Part shown: positions 27,334-64,000 of the stretch, piece by piece | Layout of the letters: every line of letters begins with the position of its first letter | Position numbering within the stretch: position 1 is the first letter of the stretch | NCBI GenBank assembly: GCA_016840945.1 | Contig: JAEORJ010000093.1 | Location: forward strand, 1-64,000 | Length of the DNA: 64,000 bases | Reading direction: 5' to 3' | From: Candidatus Gerdarchaeota archaeon | Lineage (GTDB): Archaea > Asgardarchaeota > Heimdallarchaeia > JABLTI01 | Program-made: the position numbers and the translations under genes | Notes under the pieces: generated by a model | Database searches by the model: none | What the model was told of the DNA's origin: nothing | The model's input: only the letters and a program-made list of their open reading frames with translations

Positions 27334-28380
27334 TTAGTTCTTTCCTATTACTTCAATCATTCTTTCTAAAAACTCAATTATGGTTGTGCCCAAGGTCATA
27401 GACGTTTGGCCTAAATCGATTAATGATAATGTTCGACCTACGCCTTCTTTTAGTACTTCTGGAATTTTTGTCTCACTGATTTTTGTTGGTTTGTCTTTTT
27501 GAGAGATTGCGAAAGTAATGACACAATTATCTGTTGTCTGTTTGATCATTTTTGCTAGCTCATTAGTATGTACTTCTTCAGATTTTTGTTCAGAGAAATT
27601 AGCAAAATGGAGTATGCCATTGAGATTATGTGATAAGTATTTGTGTGTTACAGGATTGCTAGGTTCTGTGACAATAATTGTTCCTTCGATATTTCTGAAT
27701 TTAAAGTCAATTTTGTTATCTTCAAATCTGTAGTATGTTAGTAACAATGAATTTTTCTCGAAAATAGCTGTTCTAGCAATAGAAAGTAATAATTGGTCAG
27801 TTCCTGAAAAAAGTAGTTTAATTGGTTTATCTCGGTATTTAACGACATTGTAAAGAAGTTCAAAACTTTTTCCGATGACAACATTAGTTTCTTCGATTTC
27901 TGATAGTTCAAATTTGCTTTGTTCTTTAAAGATACACTTTTCTATTTGAGAGTTCAAAGTGTTGATTTCATTTCTTTGGATATCTTTGATTGATTTGAAA
28001 TTATTGATCCAATTAGCAATATCGAATGCAATGTTATTCCTTGCTTTTGTAGTATAACTTTCTGCTGCTGTAGGGTAGAATATTAAAAGAAAAGCTGGTA
28101 CTTTACCACCATTTTGTTTTATTCTTTCATCTTTGACTTCTGGATTTTCAATTTGAAAAGTATAGACATACAATAGTAATTCTGTTCGGTAGACAACTGG
28201 CAAAGGTCCATATAGTGCTCCTGTACTTTCACCATAATTTAAAATAATAGAATAGTAATTAGCAATATTTCTTAGATCACATTCACTCATACCAGGAATT
28301 AATGGATCGTGGTAAATGCCCATGCCTTTATCATTAAAAGCTGAAAGAGAAGTATAGACATTAAACTTTTCACTAAGCAT
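27334..28380 (-). CDS. Longin-like protein with degenerate GTPase-like C-terminal domain
   Basis: Protein of 348 residues, last gene of the GTPase cluster, beginning 3 bases after GTPase A with GGAG upstream. Residues ~1-135 have the alternating strands and helices of a longin/roadblock-like domain (GALYGPLPVVYRTELLLYVYTF). Residues ~185-346 follow the layout of the adjacent Arf-like GTPases without their motifs: GTDQLLLS (193-200) where GASGAGKT should be, GTIIVTEPSNP where DVGGQE should be, SQKD (293-296) for NKQD, and a closing helix LGTTIIEFLERMIEVI equivalent to the last helix of the GTPases. It probably cannot bind GTP normally. The domain reading is inferred by eye. Confidence 0.6.
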   Translation of the reverse strand: MLSEKFNVYTSLSAFNDKGMGIYHDPLIPGMSECDLRNIANYYSIILNYGESTGALYGPLPVVYRTELLLYVYTFQIENPEVKDERIKQNGGKVPAFLLIFYPTAAESYTTKARNNIAFDIANWINNFKSIKDIQRNEINTLNSQIEKCIFKEQSKFELSEIEETNVVIGKSFELLYNVVKYRDKPIKLLFSGTDQLLLSIARTAIFEKNSLLLTYYRFEDNKIDFKFRNIEGTIIVTEPSNPVTHKYLSHNLNGILHFANFSEQKSEEVHTNELAKMIKQTTDNCVITFAISQKDKPTKISETKIPEVLKEGVGRTLSLIDLGQTSMTLGTTIIEFLERMIEVIGKN

Positions 28381-28383
28381 GGT

Positions 28384-28971
28384 CTATTTCTCCTTCGATT
28401 TTTTAGTAGCAATTTTGTCTATAAGCCATAAAATAGCATCTTCAATACCATCACCAAATTTAGCTGAGCTTGGTAAAATATTGAAAGATCGACCGACTAA
28501 TTCACCAATACCATAAAGATTAATCGCATCTTGAGCAGATAATGGATTAATCTCCTTAAGATCTTGTTTATTTACAAGAATTAGGATTGGTGTTTTTTCT
28601 CCGACTAAAGTTAACATGTAATCAAAAGAGAATTTGGAGACCTCAAAAGAATCACTATTCTCAGTTTGACGAACGGTGCCATCAATAACATAAATGATAG
28701 CATCAGCTTGAGATATACCTAAGCTCCAAAGACTTTCGCGATAAAGTTCTTGTCCTCCAACATCTATTGCTGTCAAGGACCAACCTCCTATATTAATAGG
28801 TGATTGCCTAATATCAATACCCAAAGTTGTCCTTGGATTATCTAAGACGGGTTCACCCGTTTCAAGAAATCTAACTAGAGTAGTTTTTCCAGCTCCACTA
28901 GCACCAAGAATGCAAATATTTGATTTTTGTTCTATGGATTTTCTGCCAAATATACGACTTAACCAGCTCAT
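28384..28971 (-). CDS. Arf-like small GTPase A
   Basis: 195 residues with all GTPase motifs: P-loop GASGAGKT (23-30), switch Thr in RTTLGID, DVGGQ (70-74) as in Arf and SR-beta, NKQD (134-137), SAKFG (169-173). The start MSWLSRIFGRK is an amphipathic, basic helix almost identical in the second copy at 31628, suggesting membrane docking without the myristoylated Gly2 of eukaryotic Arf. Gln74 is in the catalytic position, so hydrolysis is expected. The GTP-dependent switch role is family knowledge; partners are probably the two flanking longin-like proteins. AGGTGAT precedes the ATG. Confidence 0.9.
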   Translation of the reverse strand: MSWLSRIFGRKSIEQKSNICILGASGAGKTTLVRFLETGEPVLDNPRTTLGIDIRQSPINIGGWSLTAIDVGGQELYRESLWSLGISQADAIIYVIDGTVRQTENSDSFEVSKFSFDYMLTLVGEKTPILILVNKQDLKEINPLSAQDAINLYGIGELVGRSFNILPSSAKFGDGIEDAILWLIDKIATKKSKEK

Positions 28972-28979
28972 AGTATCAC

Positions 28980-29876
28980 CTACTCAAGTTGTTCTAAGAT
29001 ATTCCTTTCAATTGGCAAATCGTAGTAATTTGCTCGCATCCATTGTATTAATGAAGCGTCAGCTACTGCTAAATTATTCTTAGCTGCAAAATCAGCCACC
29101 GGTATAATATCATTGGATGAAATAGCCATTTCAAAGAATTTCTTAATCTCATCAATAATGACCTCTCTATTATGTTCTTCATATAGCTTAGCTATTTTTT
29201 TACAAAATGGTGAAGTATATAGACCATATGCTGTTTTTGCTGGCAAGAATAAAATTGTATATTCCCCTTTATTACTATCAATTATCTTAAGAACATAATC
29301 ATTAAGAACTAAACCTGTAAGAGCTACTCTATTTGTTACATTGCTAGTGTTACCAATTAATGTAATGTGTTTTTTCAATTCATTTGGAATGTAGCTGTAG
29401 AACATCGTTAGAAATTCTTTTAGCTGTATTTTTTCACCTACAACCAGTGTTTTTTGTCTAGTTAATATAGAGAATATAAAGTTGTCAAGATTTTCATAGA
29501 CTGCTTCTGTAACAGGACTTTCTTTATACTCTAAAACAATCTCATCTGGTAAAACTGTTGCAGGATTACTGATTATTGGTTGTAGTAAATCATTAATGCT
29601 ATCTAAAAATCCTAATGGATTTAGCTTCAGTGCTTTATCATCAATTTGAATAATCAATGCAACACCAGAATCTTGATCTTCAACTAGTAATAGTGAGCTC
29701 AAGTAGAGATTCTTATCAACAGTTACTAATTTAAAAACTTCATTTTCAGGATCACCTAAAGGCAAAGCTTCTATGAGTAATTTTTTCATTAATTCTTCTG
29801 AAAAACCAACTACTTTTAGAGCAGAAGCTCCTTTTTCTCTTCCAATTTCAACTAAAGCATAGTTCTTAAAGATCAT
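28980..29876 (-). CDS. Longin-like protein of the GTPase cluster
   Basis: 298 residues. The N-terminal ~100 residues (YALVEIGREKGASALKVVGF, then NLYLSSLLLVEDQDSGVALI) look like a longin or roadblock-type module. The middle (VVGEKIQLKEFLTMFYSYIP) is reminiscent of DENN-type lobes, but this is weak. The C-terminal ~100 residues are helical. Its ATG overlaps the stop of the membrane-protein gene by 4 bases (ATGA), with AGGAGG upstream, and it ends 8 bases before GTPase A, so the three are almost certainly one transcript. A role as adaptor or exchange factor for the GTPase is inferred from context. Confidence 0.55.
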   Translation of the reverse strand: MIFKNYALVEIGREKGASALKVVGFSEELMKKLLIEALPLGDPENEVFKLVTVDKNLYLSSLLLVEDQDSGVALIIQIDDKALKLNPLGFLDSINDLLQPIISNPATVLPDEIVLEYKESPVTEAVYENLDNFIFSILTRQKTLVVGEKIQLKEFLTMFYSYIPNELKKHITLIGNTSNVTNRVALTGLVLNDYVLKIIDSNKGEYTILFLPAKTAYGLYTSPFCKKIAKLYEEHNREVIIDEIKKFFEMAISSNDIIPVADFAAKNNLAVADASLIQWMRANYYDLPIERNILEQLE

Positions 29877-30775
29877 TGGGGAATCCTCCTAGATTTCTTT
29901 AATTCAGCTTGTTTATTCATCAAGTCTGTAAAGCTTGGTGGTAAAACCCCTGTTCTTTGTTGCAACCAAATGGGTGGAAATAATGTATAGTAATAACTGA
30001 CAAGTGAAGTAAAATAGAACACTAAAGCCATTGAGGGCATAGCATATCGGTAAAATGGTGTATCATCAATATTGAACGTGTTGAAACCAATATGGATAAT
30101 GTTTGCTAATCCGTCTAATAAAACACCTAAAGTACCTAAAGCTGCTGCTCTTAAACGTAATCTTACCATCTTATTTGCAGTACTTCTAGCTTCAACAAGT
30201 AAACTTACAATTGTAAATACCGCTGCAGCTACAACAACCAAACCAAAGATAATAATGGAATAATCCATCAAACTTGCAGGTAATTCATAGAAAGTTCCAA
30301 CTAAATAGAGATTTTCTACAAAAAATAATAGTACAAATTCTATAATCGCAAGAATTTTGATTACTCGTCTTATATTCGTTCTAAAGTTAATTATGTTAAG
30401 CATAAGTAAGTTAAGAGCGGTAATCAATATTGTATAACCTAATACAGACACATAAATTGAGAAATTTGGATCAAATATTTGCCCATTTAGGAAATTACCA
30501 AGATGATCCGAGAAGTAGCTTAAACTGATAAAAGTAATGGCTACAAAAAGGAATCTGAAATGTCTGATAGTATTTCCTTTTGTTTGGTTATTTCCTAATT
30601 TCCCAGATATAAACAATTGAAAAATTATTGAAAACACAACGACCAAACCAAAAACTAATGTTCCGATAAGTGATTCGTATCTGTAATCAAATGTTGCTAC
30701 GAACCATTCTAACAATGTTGCCAAATGTATCACCTGTTTTATTGTAAATTTATTATAACTATGCTTTTTCATCAT
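29873..30775 (-). CDS. Seven-helix membrane protein of the GTPase cluster
   Basis: 300 residues with about seven hydrophobic helices and short loops, and a basic C-terminal tail (LNKQAELKKSRRIPQ-like). No catalytic motifs seen. The topology recalls the 7TM signalling-receptor N-terminal modules found in archaeal sensors, but no output domain is attached. It overlaps the next gene by 4 bases, so it is translated with the longin-like protein and may be the membrane receptor or docking site of the GTPase module (inference). Two ATGs in tandem open the frame. Confidence 0.6.
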   Translation of the reverse strand: MMKKHSYNKFTIKQVIHLATLLEWFVATFDYRYESLIGTLVFGLVVVFSIIFQLFISGKLGNNQTKGNTIRHFRFLFVAITFISLSYFSDHLGNFLNGQIFDPNFSIYVSVLGYTILITALNLLMLNIINFRTNIRRVIKILAIIEFVLLFFVENLYLVGTFYELPASLMDYSIIIFGLVVVAAAVFTIVSLLVEARSTANKMVRLRLRAAALGTLGVLLDGLANIIHIGFNTFNIDDTPFYRYAMPSMALVFYFTSLVSYYYTLFPPIWLQQRTGVLPPSFTDLMNKQAELKKSRRIPQ

Positions 30776-30851
30776 TATTTAAAAATATATCTAATTTTGC
30801 AAAACAATTTAAAAAAATGATAAATTTTCAAAAAAATATGAAAATTATTTT

Positions 30852-31538
30852 TTATACTGTTGAATCTCGTAATGTTAATATTTGTTTTACAATTTGACCT
30901 AAATCTGTTAGTGAACGAGAATGACCACTGACTTCAATCAAACCAAGTTCTTTAAGTTGTTTGAGATAATTTGAAGCTGTTCCCAAAGAAATTTGCATAA
31001 TATCTTTTATTTGATCTAGGTTATTTCCCTCACTAATACAATTTAACAAAGCCATGCTTACAGGTTCTGTAACCAGTGCTTCAAAAGATTTAACCAGATT
31101 CTGCTCGAAAATTATTTCTTGATTATCTAGTTCTTTAGAAACAAAAACTTTGATCTCCATATTGTACAAGCTTTTAACAATTTGCGCTGCTTGAATAAGA
31201 GATATATTCATTACTAGTGATGTGTCTCCTAGGTTAAGCATATATTCATGTCCTGGTTGATAATCCATTATTAATGCTTTAGCAAAATCAAGTATGACAT
31301 TTAGAAAATCCTTCTCTTTTGTTATGTCAATTACTTGCATGTTAAATTGGATTTTTGTTAGTTGGCAATATTCACGAAGTTTATTTAATGTCTTTTCTAA
31401 AAATGCATAATTTGTTGTTCCTTTTATTGTATCAGCTTTTGATACAAACACAACAATTTTTTTTGCTGGATGAATTCTATCAAAATCAATTATTCTTTGG
31501 AAATCTTTCTTAAGTGGCGCAATTTGTATGAGAGACAT
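30852..31538 (-). CDS. CARF-like Rossmann domain fused to winged helix, putative regulator
   Basis: 228 residues. Residues ~20-140 have a CARF-like Rossmann layout: KIVVFVSKADTIKG as the first strand and loop, and YMLNLGDTSLVMNISLIQAAQIV matching the N-x-T-G-G-T-K-x-M-type motif of Csa3 and relatives. Residues ~160-228 are a winged helix (ISEGNNLDQIKDIMQISLGTASNYLKQLKELGLIEV), ending with a TDLG turn. Csa3-like proteins sense cyclic oligonucleotides and regulate CRISPR genes, but there is no CRISPR locus here. Placed between GTPase B and the rest of the cluster, it probably regulates this cluster. The CARF reading is moderately sure. Confidence 0.6.
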   Translation of the reverse strand: MSLIQIAPLKKDFQRIIDFDRIHPAKKIVVFVSKADTIKGTTNYAFLEKTLNKLREYCQLTKIQFNMQVIDITKEKDFLNVILDFAKALIMDYQPGHEYMLNLGDTSLVMNISLIQAAQIVKSLYNMEIKVFVSKELDNQEIIFEQNLVKSFEALVTEPVSMALLNCISEGNNLDQIKDIMQISLGTASNYLKQLKELGLIEVSGHSRSLTDLGQIVKQILTLRDSTV

Positions 31539-31627
31539 AATTAATTATTTGTTTTTATCATGGAATAAACTTTACGGTTTTTTGAAAATTTCACAAAACG
31601 AATAAAAAAAATGAAAAATTTAGAAAT

Positions 31628-32206
31628 CTATTTTTTGGTTTCTTGTATCTTGTCAATTAACCATAATATAGCTGTTTCAACACCATTGCCAAACTTTGCT
31701 GAAGTAGGTAGTATATTGAATGATCTTCCTACCAATCCTGAGATATCATAGAGTTCAATAGCTGCATGTGTTGTAAGAGGATTCTCGTTAGATAAATCTT
31801 GTTTATTAATCAACATTAGAATTGGTGTTTTGCTGTCGACAATTGATAACATATAATCAAAGCTAAATTTGCTAACCTCGTATTGTAAATTATCAACAGT
31901 TGGTCGAACAATACCATCAATAACATATATTACTGCGTCAGCTTGACTAACTCCTAAACTCCATAAACTCTCTCGATATAGATCCTGACCGCCAACATCT
32001 ATTGCAGATAGAGACCATCCACCTATATTAATTGGATTTTGTCTAATATCTATCCCTAAAGTTGTTCTTGGATCAATTTCAACAGGTTGGCCAGTTTCTA
32101 AATAACGCACAAGGGTTGTTTTCCCTGCACCAGAAGCTCCTAAAATGACAATACTCGCTTTTTGCTCCATATTTTTCCTGCCGAATAATCTCGAGAGCCA
32201 ACTCAT
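31628..32206 (-). CDS. Arf-like small GTPase B
   Basis: 192 residues, a close paralog of GTPase A. P-loop GASGAGKT, RTTLGID, DVGGQ, NKQD and SAKFG are all present. The N-terminus MSWLSRLFGRK matches MSWLSRIFGRK of copy A, so an amphipathic membrane-binding helix is conserved. AAGGTGA lies 5 bases before ATG 32206; the GTG nine bases further upstream is part of that Shine-Dalgarno site and is rejected as start. First gene of the minus-strand cluster, divergent from 32367, with the regulator gene 89 bases downstream. Confidence 0.9.
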   Translation of the reverse strand: MSWLSRLFGRKNMEQKASIVILGASGAGKTTLVRYLETGQPVEIDPRTTLGIDIRQNPINIGGWSLSAIDVGGQDLYRESLWSLGVSQADAVIYVIDGIVRPTVDNLQYEVSKFSFDYMLSIVDSKTPILMLINKQDLSNENPLTTHAAIELYDISGLVGRSFNILPTSAKFGNGVETAILWLIDKIQETKK

Positions 32207-32366
32207 TATTCTCACCTTGGATAAAATTATAATATTATTTTGTTAACGCATGTTTGTATATAATATTTAGTGTATGGACAAAAACAAACGAATTACGGCA
32301 AAAACTCTTATAGCTTTATTACTCTATCTTTTTATTGTTATCAAAAAACTGTGAAATTAGATTGAA

Positions 32367-58116: not shown

Positions 58117-61100
58117 ATGGCACTAAAAGGCTCGAGTAGAAAAATAATCGTTATAACATTACTAGGATTTTTTATTATAAGTGGAATATTATTACAGATA
58201 ACTCCAGCTCAAGGAGCTATTTCTGTATCATTGAATTGGACTTATAATATGAGCGCTAATAATTATCACAATACTCCAATAGCAGCTGATATTAATCAAG
58301 ATGGTTATATGGAGATTTTAATTGCTGATGATGATGGAACTCTATATTGTTTGGATTACCAAAAGAATGTTCTCTGGACTAAAGATTTGGGAACAGGCTC
58401 TGACATCATGTCACGAGTAACAGTTGCTGATATAGATGCTGATAAAGAAGTTGAAATTGTCTTTTTAGAGACCGCGACTGATACAGTCTATTGCTTAAAT
58501 ACTACAGGAGGAACTGAATGGACTTATAGTTCGATGAATGGTGGAGTAACTTATTCAGGAATAACTGTAGCAGATATCAATGATGACGGGCAATTAGAAC
58601 TCCTTTTTGGTAATGACAATAGTAGAGTTTATTGTTTAGCTAATAATGGTACCTTATTATGGGAATACGTTAATAGCTTCAGTGGGGCGATAACCACAAC
58701 ACCAGCAGTCGCCGACGTTGAAGATGATGGTGAAATGGAAGTCATTGTTGGAAATAGTGGTGGCAGCACCAAACAATTGATTTGTATCAATCACAACGGA
58801 ACATTGCAGTGGGCTTACAATGTCACTGGTGATATTTACAGCTCCCCAGCAATTGCTGATATCGATGATGATAGCAATCTAGAGATTATTTTTGGAAGTA
58901 ATGATTATTATATCCGAGCCTTAGAAGGAGGAACAACAAGTGCTTCTTTAGATTGGTCATATAATGCTAGTGGAGCAATTTTCGGTGACCCAGCAGTTTA
59001 TGACGTAGATGGTGATACATATGATGAAACAATTTTCACCACTAATGAAAGTGCAACCCTCTTTATTCTTGACCATAATGGTGCAGTACAAAACAGCACT
59101 ACTCTCGATGAAGGAAGTTTTGGATCACCTACAATAGCTGATTTAAACAATGATGGGAATTATGAAATAATAATTACTAAATCAAATGATGGCGGTGTAG
59201 GTGATGACAGCTTAAGGATTTATGCTGCAAATAGCACCCTTGAAACATCATATGATTGTGGCGATATAGATAGGGTAGGCACAACAATAGCTGATGTTGA
59301 TGCTGATGGTGTGTTTGAAATATTAACAACCAATACTACTGGAACAGTTTTCTGTATAGATGTCACAGGAGTAGCAGCGTCTGGATTGGCACCATGGCAT
59401 ACAAAACACGGTTCATTATATAATACCGGTTGGATGGATACCGATAGTGATTTGTTAGATGATTTCTCAGAAGTATTCTATGGTACAACAATAACTGATG
59501 CTGACACAGACAATGATATCTTAACAGATGGTGAAGAAATCATAACTTATGGAACAGATCCTACTGATATTGATACTGATAATGATAATTTAGATGATTA
59601 TGTTGAATTGTTTACTTATTCAACAGACCCTAATGATGCTGACACTGATGATGACGGTATGCCCGATGGTTGGGAAGTAACAAATAGTCTTAATCCTTTA
59701 ACTGATGATTCAACAGGTGATGGCGATACAGACGGTTTAAACAATTTAGGAGAGTATACAGCAGGAACCGATCCAAATGACTCCGATACCGAAAATGATG
59801 GAATGCCAGACGGTTGGGAAGTTACCTATGGCTTAAATCCATTGTCTGATGATTCAACCGGTGACGGTGATACAGATAATTTAAATAATTTAGCAGAGTA
59901 CACTGCTGGAACTGATCCTACAGATTCCGATTCTGATAATGATGGTATGCCAGACGGCTGGGAAGTAACCTACAGTTTAAACCCATTGAGTGATGACTCA
60001 ACTGGTGATGGCGATTCTGATAATTTAAATAACTTAGCAGAATATACTGCTGGTACTGATCCTACTGACTCTGATTCTGATAATGATGGTATGCCCGATG
60101 GATGGGAAGTTACCTATGGCCTTAATCCATTAAGTGACGATTCAACAGGTGATGGTGATACCGATAGTTTAAACAATTTGGGAGAATACACAGCGGGAAC
60201 CGATCCCACAGATTCCGATACCGATAACGATGGCATGCCAGATGGGTGGGAAGTAACAAATGGTTTGAATCCGTTAACTGATGATAGTACTGGAGATCCA
60301 GATGGAGATTCAGTCACAAATATTAATGAATACACTCAAAATACTGATCCAAATGATAATGATACGGACTCAGATGGAATGCCCGATGGTTGGGAAATAG
60401 CAAATGGATTAAATCCATTAGTAGATGATTCAGCAAACGATGATGATAGCGATAATTTAGATAATATAGGGGAATATACAGCGGGAACAGACCCACAAAA
60501 CAATGATACAGATACAGATGGTTTGTTGGATGGGGATGAAATAAATACCTACAGCACTGATCCATTAGACTCGGATAGCGATGATGACGGTTTGACAGAT
60601 GGTGAGGAAATAGCTGCAGGAACAGATCCTAACGATACCGATAGTGATGATGATGGTTTATCTGATTATGACGAGATAAACACCTATTCAACAGATCCAA
60701 ATGATAGCGATTCTGACGATGATACTTTAAGTGATCAAGAGGAAGTCACAATTGGTGTAGATGGTTATATAACAGACCCTAATAACAACGATACAGATTC
60801 CGATGGATTATTAGATGGCGCAGAAATGACTTATTCAACTGATCCCACAGATTCTGATTCTGATAACGACGGCATTTCTGATGGCGATGAAGTTTATACT
60901 TATACTACTGACCCCAATGATTCTGATAGTGATAATGACACTATCTCTGATGGTGAAGAAATTGTAGCAGGTGTGGATGGCTATATCACTAACCCATTAA
61001 ATAACGATACAGATTCAGATGGTCTATTAGATGCTTATGAGATCAACACTAGCTTAACTGATCCCACTGATTCTGATACTGACAATGATGGCCTAAGTGA

Positions 61101-64000
61101 TGGCGATGAAGTGAATACTTACTTTACAGATCCAACTGATACAGACACTGATAATGATTCATTAAGTGATCAAGAAGAGGTAACAATTGGCTTAGATGGT
61201 TATATTACTAATCCATTGAATAATGATACCGACTCAGATGGACTATTAGATGGCGATGAAGGAACATATTCATGTGATCCTACTGATCCCGATACTGACA
61301 ATGATGGTCTATCCGATGGCGATGAAGTTAACACTTACTCAACTGATCCAACAGATACTGATTCTGATAATGATACATTAGATGATAATGAGGAAGTAAC
61401 CCTAGGAGTAGACGGTTATATTACCAATCCATTAAATAACGACACAGATTCAGATGGGTTGTTAGATGGTGAAGAAGCATCATACTTGTGTGATCCAACT
61501 GACTCAGACTCTGATAATGACGGCTTAAGTGATGGTGATGAAGTAAATATCTATGGTACCAATCCAAATTCAACAGATAGTGATGGAGATACGATATCTG
61601 ATGATGAAGAAGTTGTATTGGGTGTGGATGGCTACATCACAAATCCATTAAGTAATGATACCGATTCAGACACACTTCTTGATGCATATGAAATCAATAC
61701 TAGCTTAACAGATCCCACTGATAGTGATTCCGACGATGACGGACTCTCTGATGGTGATGAAGTTAATGTTTACTTTACAAACCCCAATTCTGCTGATAGC
61801 GATTCAGATACAATAACTGACGATGAGGAAGTTGTTCTAGGTGTAGATGGTTATATTACCAATCCAAATTCCAATGATACTGACTCCGATGGATTATTAG
61901 ATGCTTATGAAATATATACAAGCTTGACTGATCCTACTGATAATGATACTGATAATGACTTGATGCCCGATGCTTGGGAAGTTGCTAATGGAACGGATCC
62001 AAATATCGATGATGCAAGTGATGATGATGATACTGACGGATTAACAAATCTACAAGAATATAATCTTGGCACAGATCCACAAGATAATGACACAGATGGT
62101 GACGGTATGCCAGATGGGTGGGAAGATAGCAATTCTTTGAATCCCTTAGTTGATGATTCAACTGCTGATCCTGATTCTGACAATTTGAATAATTTAGGGG
62201 AATATAATAATGGAACCGATCCTAATGAAGCAGATACTGACTCTGATGGCCTTAATGATGGCGAAGAAGTCACTTTAGGTGTAGACGGATACATTACAGA
62301 TCCCACTGATTCAGACAGTGATGATGATGGATTGAACGATGGAGATGAATATTCAAACTCTACAGATCCTAATGACAATGATTCTGATAATGATACTATT
62401 TTTGATGGTGAAGAAGTTGTTGCAGGTGTGGATGGTTATATCACTGACCCATTAGATCCTGACACTGATAATGATGGATTAGAAGATGGTTATGAAGTAA
62501 ATACCAGCTTAACTGATCCAACAGATATTGATACAGATAATGATAATATGAACGATAAATGGGAGGTCGATAATGGCACTAATCCTCTTGTTAATGATGC
62601 TGCTGTTGATGCTGACTCAGATGGTTTATCCAACATCCAAGAATACACAATAGGTACAGATCCACAAGATAATGACACAGACAATGATGGAATGCCTGAT
62701 GGTTGGGAATTTAGTAATAGTCTTAATCCATTAGCTGATGATTCCACAAATGACCCTGATTCAGATAATCTCAATAACCTAGGAGAATACAATAATGGAA
62801 CTAATCCTAATGTTGCTGATACAGACACAGATGGCATCAATGATGGGGAAGAAGTGGTCCTAGGAGCAGATGGCTATATAACTGATCCTTTGGATTCTGA
62901 TAGTGACGATGATGGGTTATCAGATGGTTATGAAACTGGTACCAGCAACACTAATCCAAATTCAAGTGATACGGATTCTGATTTGATGCCTGATTTATGG
63001 GAAGTAAACAATGGCACAGATCCTAATGTTAATGATGCCGCAGATGATGATGACTCTGATGGTTTAACAAATTATGAAGAATATACTTTAGGCACAGATC
63101 CATTAGATTCAGACTCTGACAATGATGGTATGCCTGATAAGTGGGAGGTTGACAATAGCTTAAATCCATTAGTAGATGATTCCACTAATGATCCTGATTC
63201 TGACAACCTAAATAATCTAGGCGAATACACATATGGAACAGATCCAAATGTTGCTGACACTGACAGTGATGGAATCGACGATGGTGAGGAAGTTGTTGTT
63301 GGTGTAGATGGTTGGATTACTAACGCTACCAATGCCGATACCGATGGTGACGGAATGGAAGATGGCTATGAAGTGACCTTTGGACTCAATCCAACAGCTG
63401 ACGATTCAACATTAGATGATGATTCAGATGGTCTTAGCAATTTAGATGAATTCTTTGGATCAACTGATCCTTTTGACGCCGATACTGATGATGACGGTTT
63501 AGAAGACGGAGAAGAAATTTTAGGTGTCTATATTCCTGATAATATGTATGCTAATGCTACAGGTTATATCCATTGTAATGCTACCAATCCTGATACTGAC
63601 GGTGATGGAATAAATGATTTTGAAGAAGCTTGCTTAGGTGTAGATGGTTATTACACTAACCCCAATGCTGCTGATTCAGATTCAGATGGTCTAGATGACA
63701 ATGCAGAGATTAATACTTATTCAACTGATCCTAACTCCACTGATAGTGATTCAGATACTATTTTGGATGGTGAGGAGGTTGTATTAGGTACTGATGGTTA
63801 TATTACAAATCCGAATAGTAACGACACTGATTCTGATGCTTTATTGGATGCTTATGAGATTAATACGAGCTTGACAGATCCAACTGATAGCGATTCTGAT
63901 GATGATTTAATCCTCGATGGTGAAGAAGTTGTTGCTGGTGTAGATGGTTATATCACTGATCCAAATGACGATGATAGTGATGATGACGGATTAACAGACG
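58117..64000 (+). CDS. Giant secreted calcium-binding repeat protein (FG-GAP/propeller plus thrombospondin type 3 repeats), 3' end beyond window
   Basis: Open frame running off the window, at least 1,961 residues. A signal peptide (residues 1-34, basic start, cleavage near AQG-A) is followed by a beta-propeller of roughly 400 residues with FG-GAP/VCBS-type units (VADINDDGQLELLFGN; IADIDDDSNLEIIFGS). From about residue 443 onward come thrombospondin type 3-like repeats rich in Asp, of the type DTDNDGLSDGDEVNTYSTDP. These bind Ca2+ and stiffen surface stalks. The C-terminal anchor is outside the window. Probably a surface adhesion or S-layer-associated stalk (inference). Confidence 0.85.
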   Translation, partial: MALKGSSRKIIVITLLGFFIISGILLQITPAQGAISVSLNWTYNMSANNYHNTPIAADINQDGYMEILIADDDGTLYCLDYQKNVLWTKDLGTGSDIMSRVTVADIDADKEVEIVFLETATDTVYCLNTTGGTEWTYSSMNGGVTYSGITVADINDDGQLELLFGNDNSRVYCLANNGTLLWEYVNSFSGAITTTPAVADVEDDGEMEVIVGNSGGSTKQLICINHNGTLQWAYNVTGDIYSSPAIADIDDDSNLEIIFGSNDYYIRALEGGTTSASLDWSYNASGAIFGDPAVYDVDGDTYDETIFTTNESATLFILDHNGAVQNSTTLDEGSFGSPTIADLNNDGNYEIIITKSNDGGVGDDSLRIYAANSTLETSYDCGDIDRVGTTIADVDADGVFEILTTNTTGTVFCIDVTGVAASGLAPWHTKHGSLYNTGWMDTDSDLLDDFSEVFYGTTITDADTDNDILTDGEEIITYGTDPTDIDTDNDNLDDYVELFTYSTDPNDADTDDDGMPDGWEVTNSLNPLTDDSTGDGDTDGLNNLGEYTAGTDPNDSDTENDGMPDGWEVTYGLNPLSDDSTGDGDTDNLNNLAEYTAGTDPTDSDSDNDGMPDGWEVTYSLNPLSDDSTGDGDSDNLNNLAEYTAGTDPTDSDSDNDGMPDGWEVTYGLNPLSDDSTGDGDTDSLNNLGEYTAGTDPTDSDTDNDGMPDGWEVTNGLNPLTDDSTGDPDGDSVTNINEYTQNTDPNDNDTDSDGMPDGWEIANGLNPLVDDSANDDDSDNLDNIGEYTAGTDPQNNDTDTDGLLDGDEINTYSTDPLDSDSDDDGLTDGEEIAAGTDPNDTDSDDDGLSDYDEINTYSTDPNDSDSDDDTLSDQEEVTIGVDGYITDPNNNDTDSDGLLDGAEMTYSTDPTDSDSDNDGISDGDEVYTYTTDPNDSDSDNDTISDGEEIVAGVDGYITNPLNNDTDSDGLLDAYEINTSLTDPTDSDTDNDGLSDGDEVNTYFTDPTDTDTDNDSLSDQEEVTIGLDGYITNPLNNDTDSDGLLDGDEGTYSCDPTDPDTDNDGLSDGDEVNTYSTDPTDTDSDNDTLDDNEEVTLGVDGYITNPLNNDTDSDGLLDGEEASYLCDPTDSDSDNDGLSDGDEVNIYGTNPNSTDSDGDTISDDEEVVLGVDGYITNPLSNDTDSDTLLDAYEINTSLTDPTDSDSDDDGLSDGDEVNVYFTNPNSADSDSDTITDDEEVVLGVDGYITNPNSNDTDSDGLLDAYEIYTSLTDPTDNDTDNDLMPDAWEVANGTDPNIDDASDDDDTDGLTNLQEYNLGTDPQDNDTDGDGMPDGWEDSNSLNPLVDDSTADPDSDNLNNLGEYNNGTDPNEADTDSDGLNDGEEVTLGVDGYITDPTDSDSDDDGLNDGDEYSNSTDPNDNDSDNDTIFDGEEVVAGVDGYITDPLDPDTDNDGLEDGYEVNTSLTDPTDIDTDNDNMNDKWEVDNGTNPLVNDAAVDADSDGLSNIQEYTIGTDPQDNDTDNDGMPDGWEFSNSLNPLADDSTNDPDSDNLNNLGEYNNGTNPNVADTDTDGINDGEEVVLGADGYITDPLDSDSDDDGLSDGYETGTSNTNPNSSDTDSDLMPDLWEVNNGTDPNVNDAADDDDSDGLTNYEEYTLGTDPLDSDSDNDGMPDKWEVDNSLNPLVDDSTNDPDSDNLNNLGEYTYGTDPNVADTDSDGIDDGEEVVVGVDGWITNATNADTDGDGMEDGYEVTFGLNPTADDSTLDDDSDGLSNLDEFFGSTDPFDADTDDDGLEDGEEILGVYIPDNMYANATGYIHCNATNPDTDGDGINDFEEACLGVDGYYTNPNAADSDSDGLDDNAEINTYSTDPNSTDSDSDTILDGEEVVLGTDGYITNPNSNDTDSDALLDAYEINTSLTDPTDSDSDDDLILDGEEVVAGVDGYITDPNDDDSDDDGLTD
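59659..60522 (+). repeat. Six tandem 144-base repeats inside the giant protein gene
   Basis: The codon ATG of the M-P-D-G-W-E motif recurs at 59659, 59803, 59947, 60091, 60235 and 60379, exactly every 144 bases, so the unit is 48 residues. Codons vary between copies where the residues are the same, indicating protein-level constraint rather than fresh DNA duplication. After 60522 the units become shorter, 22-23 residues. Confidence 0.85.

Follow-up and report, generated by a model that had tools for sequence, protein, structure and literature searches.

An Asgard archaeal gene cluster with Arf-family GTPases and a predicted DENN-module protein

We analyzed a 64,000-nucleotide stretch from a Candidatus Gerdarchaeota archaeon (assembly GCA_016840945.1, contig JAEORJ010000093.1, positions 1 to 64,000 of the forward strand), which we will call the window. 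Between positions 27,334 and 32,206, six open reading frames on the minus strand encode two Arf-family GTPases (A and B), a predicted DENN-module protein, a protein with a longin domain and an Arf-like fold, a seven-helix (7TM) membrane protein, and a CARF regulator. (Other loci and genomes are cited by L and G numbers, and our alignments by A numbers.) In order of transcription, the features are:

31628..32206, minus strand: Arf-family GTPase B, 192 amino acids (Pfam Arf, PF00025, 80.2 bits, cut-off 22.3; complete G motifs)
30852..31538, minus strand: CARF–winged-helix regulator, Csa3-like, 228 amino acids (PADLOC Csa3 model, E 1.3e-11, residues 48–217)
30826..30843, no strand: palindrome TTTCA-N8-TGAAA, 5' of the 7TM gene, candidate operator of the CARF–winged-helix protein (pattern search)
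29873..30775, minus strand: seven-helix membrane protein, 300 amino acids (profile hydropathy, 23 rows; conserved loop and tail)
28980..29876, minus strand: predicted DENN-module protein, 298 amino acids (AlphaFold2 pLDDT 91.7; fold matches)
28384..28971, minus strand: Arf-family GTPase A, 195 amino acids (Pfam Arf 79.2 bits, cut-off 22.3; complete G motifs)
27334..28380, minus strand: predicted longin, long helix, and Arf-fold pseudo-GTPase, 348 amino acids (AlphaFold2 pLDDT 87.9, pTM 0.58; fold matches; G motifs lost)

The gaps between genes (89, 76, -4, 8, and 3 bases) confirm the claim of a preliminary description, made from the sequence alone, that the last four genes are tightly spaced. 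Its labels (two Arf-like GTPases, longin-like proteins, a seven-helix protein, and a CARF-like regulator) also hold, by profiles and predictions. (The frame of GTPase B opens with GTG at 32215 and has an ATG at 32206.)

The loci closest to the window are from metagenome-assembled genomes of Candidatus Heimdallarchaeota. L003 has all six genes in the order of the window, with gaps of 72, 142, -4, 8, and 7 bases, and is flanked on both sides by other genes than the window cluster. The contigs of L001, L002, L004, and L160 end inside the cluster, and the cluster genes that they do contain follow the same order (in L160, the CARF fragment was identified by eye). Because L003 and the fragmentary contigs share this order, the layout is not due to chance. 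The locus tags of homologues agree as well: ACTSSH_02790 (348 aa), 02800 (298 aa), and 02805 (7TM); ACTSSH_01350 (7TM) and 01355 (298 aa); and ACTSO7_07570 (298 aa) and 07580 (348 aa). Two frames are interrupted by a stop in the assembly: the one for the 298-residue protein in L002 and the one for the 7TM protein in L004.

A predicted DENN module beside Arf-family GTPases

By confident prediction, the 298-residue protein is a complete single-chain DENN module. The AlphaFold2 model (pTM 0.89, from a 33-row alignment) has a longin domain (residues ~1–103), a DENN core (~130–218), and d-DENN helices (~223–295). The longin domain consists of strands 6–12 and 16–23, helix 27–36, strands 47–53, 56–64, and 70–78, and helix 87–103. 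The predicted DENN core has five strands, interspersed with helices, within residues 143–217, and the predicted d-DENN region has two helical hairpins (helices 223–233, 237–251, 260–266, and 271–284). This order matches the tripartite plan of the DENN module given by Zhang et al. 2012 (PMC3521125). In the PDB fold ranking of the model (VIA), DENND10, DENND1B, and DENND1A are at the top, each covering 263–270 of the 298 residues, and their alignments run from model residue 1 to 287–290. Foldseek matches at E ≤ 0.001 comprise six chains, from DENND1A, DENND1B, and C9orf72-SMCR8-WDR41 entries. TagF likewise covers most of the model in the fold search. (In Pfam, GAP1-M, which is the middle domain of a GTPase-associated protein from bacteria, weakly matches a DENN-like core at L019 3191–4090, E 0.042.) The preliminary description had called the 298-residue protein longin-like; a longin domain is indeed predicted, but as one part of a full DENN module.

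The predicted order of longin, DENN core, and d-DENN is that of the eukaryotic DENN proteins (DENND1A/1B, DENND10, FLCN, SMCR8, C9orf72), and DENND10, DENND1A, and DENND1B match the model over nearly its full length. In human cells, DENN regulators control membrane traffic. Unlike these proteins, the cluster protein is archaeal and compact, lies beside an Arf-family gene, and has no sequence-level match to them. Our searches of the open-access literature turned up no description of an archaeal DENN module (bioRxiv and most subscription journals lay outside the search). A structural survey of Asgard proteins, available as a preprint, may list DENN-like proteins. In the accessible portions of Eme et al. 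2023 (PMC10307638), we found no mention of longin, DENN, folliculin, or C9orf72, and in those of a 2026 review (PMC12993045), no mention of longin or DENN.

Both GTPases have the motifs GAGKTT, DVGGQ, NKQD, and SAK. The glycine at position 2 that is myristoylated is a mark of classical Arf proteins only. Since residue 2 is serine in both GTPases, they are Arf-related rather than classical Arf proteins. GTPase B and three relatives form their own clade in a tree (support 95/92), and the copies of GTPase A do not resolve as a clade in that tree; the GTPase B clade is consistent with a gene duplication that gave rise to A and B before the divergence of these genomes. Among solved structures, the best relatives of the ArfA/ArfB profile are HodArfR1 (8oul), ARL3, and GerdArfR1 (8oun), in that order. 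HodArfR1 and GerdArfR1 are named as Asgard Arf-related GTPases in their PDB titles; what differs here is that two paralogues share one cluster with DENN, longin–pseudo-Arf, and 7TM proteins. Asgard Arf-related GTPases and longins were already known, and genes for small GTPases in MK-D1, an Asgard strain, are reported not to share operons in general with roadblock, longin, or TRAPPC3 genes (PMC10933270).

The remaining cluster proteins

The 348-residue protein is predicted, with fold matches, to have a longin domain (residues ~9–125), a long helix, and an Arf-fold domain (~185–347) that lacks nucleotide-binding motifs. Its earlier label of longin/pseudo-GTPase is borne out, and the folds of the two large proteins are not unrelated, as a longin domain is predicted in both. 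At L047 7832–9408, on a 3.33-Mb contig of genome G012, GTPase A and the 348-residue gene are kept as broken remnants, and neither the DENN profile nor the 7TM profile has a match in G012.

We considered that the DENN-module and longin–pseudo-Arf proteins might pair through their longin domains into a heterodimer with GTPase-activating protein (GAP) activity on the Arf GTPases. C9orf72-SMCR8 is a GAP on ARF1, and FLCN-FNIP is a GAP on Rag. In the complex of C9orf72-SMCR8 with ARF1 (PDB 7mge, by its title), as may be the case here, DENN and longin proteins join an Arf GTPase. In C9orf72-SMCR8 and FLCN-FNIP, however, two DENN-module chains are paired, while the models here place a DENN core in the 298-residue protein and not in the 348-residue protein, which has an Arf fold after its longin domain. 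The longin domain of the 298-residue family does have one nearly invariant arginine, R13, but in the model it falls between the first and second strands, so an arginine finger is not evident. (The fingers of SMCR8, FLCN, and NPRL2 lie elsewhere in the longin domain.) Also, a 348-type neighbor was not seen in distant clusters. We therefore think that a GAP heterodimer is unlikely.

The 7TM family has seven hydrophobic peaks and alternating charge across a 23-row profile, which bears out the seven-helix label for the family and predicts an N-out/C-in topology, as in G-protein-coupled receptors. Mean counts of lysine plus arginine are 0.8, 0.5, 0.4, and 0.7 for the outer segments and 3.2, 4.8, 4.8, and 5.0 for the inner ones. 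Single rows show 5 to 7 peaks and the window protein shows five, so it is the profile that supports a count of seven. The basic loops and the tail are predicted to be cytoplasmic. The basic loop between helices 5 and 6 has conserved residues E195, K202, and R207, and the conserved C-terminal tail has P268. When the 7TM alignment (A2) was used in a PDB profile search for homology to known receptors, the single match was to a designed helical protein (E 3).

The CARF protein resembles the Csa3 regulators in having a CARF domain plus a winged helix over residues 48–217. Unlike them, it scores 26.5 bits with TIGR01884, under the curated NCBIfam cut-off of 60.2, so we consider it to be a relative of Csa3 and not a member. 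The palindrome TTTCA-N8-TGAAA was noticed by eye in gaps of the window, L003, L004, and L160 and then searched for in five loci. There are seven copies (one in the window, two in L003, two in L004, one in L160, and one in L002), and every copy is in the gap directly 5' of either the CARF gene or the 7TM gene. It lies 5' of the 7TM gene in L002, L003, and L004 as well as in the window, where it is the sole match in 64 kb, and 5' of the CARF gene in three relatives. L002 was not inspected before the search, but its copy is identical to a copy from L003. By chance, 0.66 copies are expected in the window and 0.04–0.14 in the other loci. Chance suffices for the window copy, and therefore the agreement between loci is the evidence. 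This pattern suggests that the palindrome is a candidate operator of the CARF–winged-helix protein.

The resemblance to Csa3 and the position of the palindrome, in gaps flanking the CARF gene, would also suit a stress or defense unit under second-messenger control, in which a cyclic oligonucleotide, sensed by the CARF protein, would lead it to release a membrane-acting GTPase system. However, the other five cluster proteins have PADLOC matches of E 0.0048 or weaker, or none, and distant clusters have the core without a CARF gene. This explanation seems quite improbable.

Neighborhoods in distant genomes

We searched 227 genomes (the phylum of G003, taken to be the Asgard phylum) with a profile of the 298-residue family (A5). 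Genomes G001–G004 are Candidatus Heimdallarchaeota. The profile matches 26 of the 227 genomes at E ≤ 0.001, and at E < 1e-10 it identifies 20 places in 14 genomes. An Arf-subfamily gene lies within two genes at 8 of the 20 places, a 7TM-family gene adjoins 10, and 11 have one or both. (One row of the alignment A1, L024 1305–2207, was chosen by eye after single-sequence search missed it. The distant paralogues P0023, which is this same protein, and P0028 entered through that row and were kept in A5.)

For the 7TM family, the search gave 16 places at E < 1e-9: 13 adjoin an Arf, DENN, CARF, or Zn-ribbon gene of the set, two do not, and one is a contig-end fragment. Matches on two contigs of G001 may be one gene split by the assembly, rows of alignments A7 and A4 are included among the places found with those profiles, and the distant rows of A2 and A7 were chosen because they lie beside DENN-like genes. 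When groups of the 7TM profile were left out one at a time, every group was recovered at E 4e-9 or better; multi-transmembrane frames of other loci (82 in the test set) reached E 0.03 at best.

Thus, a core of Arf, DENN-like, and 7TM genes recurs in distant genomes with its order permuted, and the three families co-occur strongly across the 227 genomes. Since the order varies between lineages, a functional link is favored over plain inheritance of a stretch of DNA. The preliminary description had asked whether the six-gene order is conserved: it is in close relatives, wholly in L003 and otherwise in fragments, whereas distant genomes keep the permuted three-gene core. At L099 317–5984, an Arf-like gene is followed by one for a different multi-transmembrane protein, which does not match the 7TM profile; close by are two genes for DENN-like proteins, 472 and 467 residues long.

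A Zn-ribbon family, with conserved YCxxC, His, and Asp (pattern S..H..H......D..G..R), accompanies the core in distant genomes. Its profile matches 9 of the 227 genomes at E < 1e-12, all of which carry DENN-like genes, and does not match G001–G003. Zn-ribbon genes lie beside cluster Arf or 7TM genes at L024 6596–7423, L022 6321–7076, L101 3998–4759, L161 505–1263, L005 8574–9371, L155 4346–5128, and L156 5218–5997. (The rows of the Zn-ribbon alignment, A8, were chosen for lying in clusters, so their adjacency is no test.) In the close clade, the 348-residue and CARF genes seem to stand in for the Zn-ribbon gene.

DENN-like genes also lie beside other GTPases. Four of the 20 places are directly 3' of a DRG-type GTPase gene (MMR_HSR1, MMR_HSR1_Xtn, TGS), and these paralogues form one clade (support 100/99, in a tree of 24 rows that we chose, several of them long-branched). 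The pairs, from four genomes, are on the same strand with gaps of 6–38 bases (L093 2423–4471, L095 5457–7505, L096 338–2382, and L097 4431–6488). By hhalign, the DRG-adjacent paralogues match two other clades at 90% and 99%. Two of the 20 places, in two genomes, lie between an SRP54 gene and an Obg-like (YGR210-type) GTPase gene (L021 470–4008 and L100 5181–8506). Three have no Arf, 7TM, DRG-type, or SRP54/Obg-like neighbor. Another DENN-like paralogue, in L092, is ~4 kb from a gene for an SRP54-type GTPase (FtsY-like by eye), and at L020 2649–4120, a Roadblock/LC7 gene is immediately 5' of a DENN-like gene.

These neighborhoods bear on a serious rival explanation, that the DENN-module protein has no catalytic activity and serves as an adaptor or effector linking Arf to the 7TM protein, much as DENND10 is a subunit of Commander. 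Against it, relatives adjoin another class of GTPase (DRG-type), which fits a GTPase partner generally, though an adaptor would fit too. We consider the adaptor unlikely but worth keeping in view.

Elsewhere in the window, an open frame of more than 1961 residues (58117–64000) runs off the window end and is likely to encode a secreted protein. We take it to have an N-terminal FG-GAP-like part, followed by dozens of aspartate-rich, calcium-binding-type repeats.

Proposed role of the cluster

We lean toward the proposal that the cluster encodes a membrane Arf switch. Its regulator would be an archaeal DENN protein, and the 7TM protein would serve as its anchor or gate. The DENN-module protein would bind the Arf GTPases via its longin and DENN surfaces and would set their nucleotide state. 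Exchange factor seems likelier than GAP because an arginine finger is not evident; the evidence for both binding and exchange is the gene neighborhood. The longin–pseudo-Arf protein may pair with the DENN-module protein by a longin-longin contact, and the 7TM protein may hold or gate the DENN/Arf platform at the membrane. On binding a nucleotide-like ligand, the CARF protein would adjust expression of its own gene and of the four-gene operon. A signaling or trafficking role for the whole, a receptor role for the 7TM protein, and contact between GTPase and regulator are likewise proposals.

This arrangement recalls bacterial MglA-MglB, in which the GTPase gene also adjoins a partner of the roadblock/longin superfamily (PMC3521125). 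But the partner here is longin plus DENN instead of roadblock, and a membrane protein and a CARF regulator are added.

Several observations weigh against our proposal. DENND10, the best fold match, is described as lacking key residues of a guanine nucleotide exchange factor (GEF) and as having GEF/GAP activity that is not settled (PMC10187114). Foldseek TM-scores of the model are moderate (0.38–0.47 by query length). Pfam and NCBIfam gave no match for the 298-residue protein, DENN-type or other, and PDB profile searches with its family found no DENN chain among the matches. (PF02141 had no matches in 225 genomes of the phylum, and control genomes gave none either.) The sole DENN-type match by sequence is Folliculin_C in P0023, at E 0.04, below the cut-off; P0023 scores better with an unrelated viral family (E 0.02), and its relative P0028 has no Folliculin_C match. 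Homology to DENN rests on the predicted fold because sequence evidence is nil for the 298-residue protein and no better than chance for P0023. The arrangement of domains in the 348-residue protein is also unsure, given the global pTM of 0.58.

The conservation of the neighborhood has weak points as well. Nine of the 20 DENN-like places have neither an Arf nor a 7TM neighbor, and only in the close clade was the cluster seen to include the 348-residue and CARF genes. The co-occurrence test ignores kinship, and its score cut-offs were fixed after the score gaps were known. Compared directly with the window clade, the DRG-adjacent paralogues reach 42% by hhalign, which is weak, and the 7TM protein of L019 matches the far clade at only 52% (97% for the near clade). 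As for the candidate operator, the gap 5' of the window's CARF gene has no exact copy, and 48 of 100 shuffles of the window hold one match. Overall, the switch reading of the preliminary description is partly supported: the anatomy of six parts stands, and the full six-gene order was found in one relative plus fragments.

We also considered a more elaborate pathway, in which the N-out/C-in 7TM protein senses an outside signal and, via its basic loop and tail, drives a DENN exchange factor that charges Arf, while a second-messenger regulator (the CARF protein) sets the supply of parts. We regard this as speculative and rather improbable. If it were true, the DENN module would be of archaeal origin, at first regulating Arf-type and other GTPases and only later applied to Rab by eukaryotes.

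DENN proteins are generally regarded as Rab GEFs, and Zhang et al. 2012 placed the fusion that created the DENN module in the eukaryotic stem lineage (PMC3521125). They also guessed that contact between DENN and Arf, as for Afi1 and Arf3, might be ancestral. What would be new here is DENN-regulated small GTPase signaling in archaea, in a novel composition; small GTPases with DENN regulators are themselves a known kind of system. If the DENN module holds, then its origin would predate eukaryotes, barring a transfer from them, and Arf would be named as its likely first partner. The host is related to the archaea from which complex cells arose, so the pairing of switch and regulator may predate complex cells. 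The cluster explicitly pairs a switch with its candidate regulator, so the pair is open to expression and assay.

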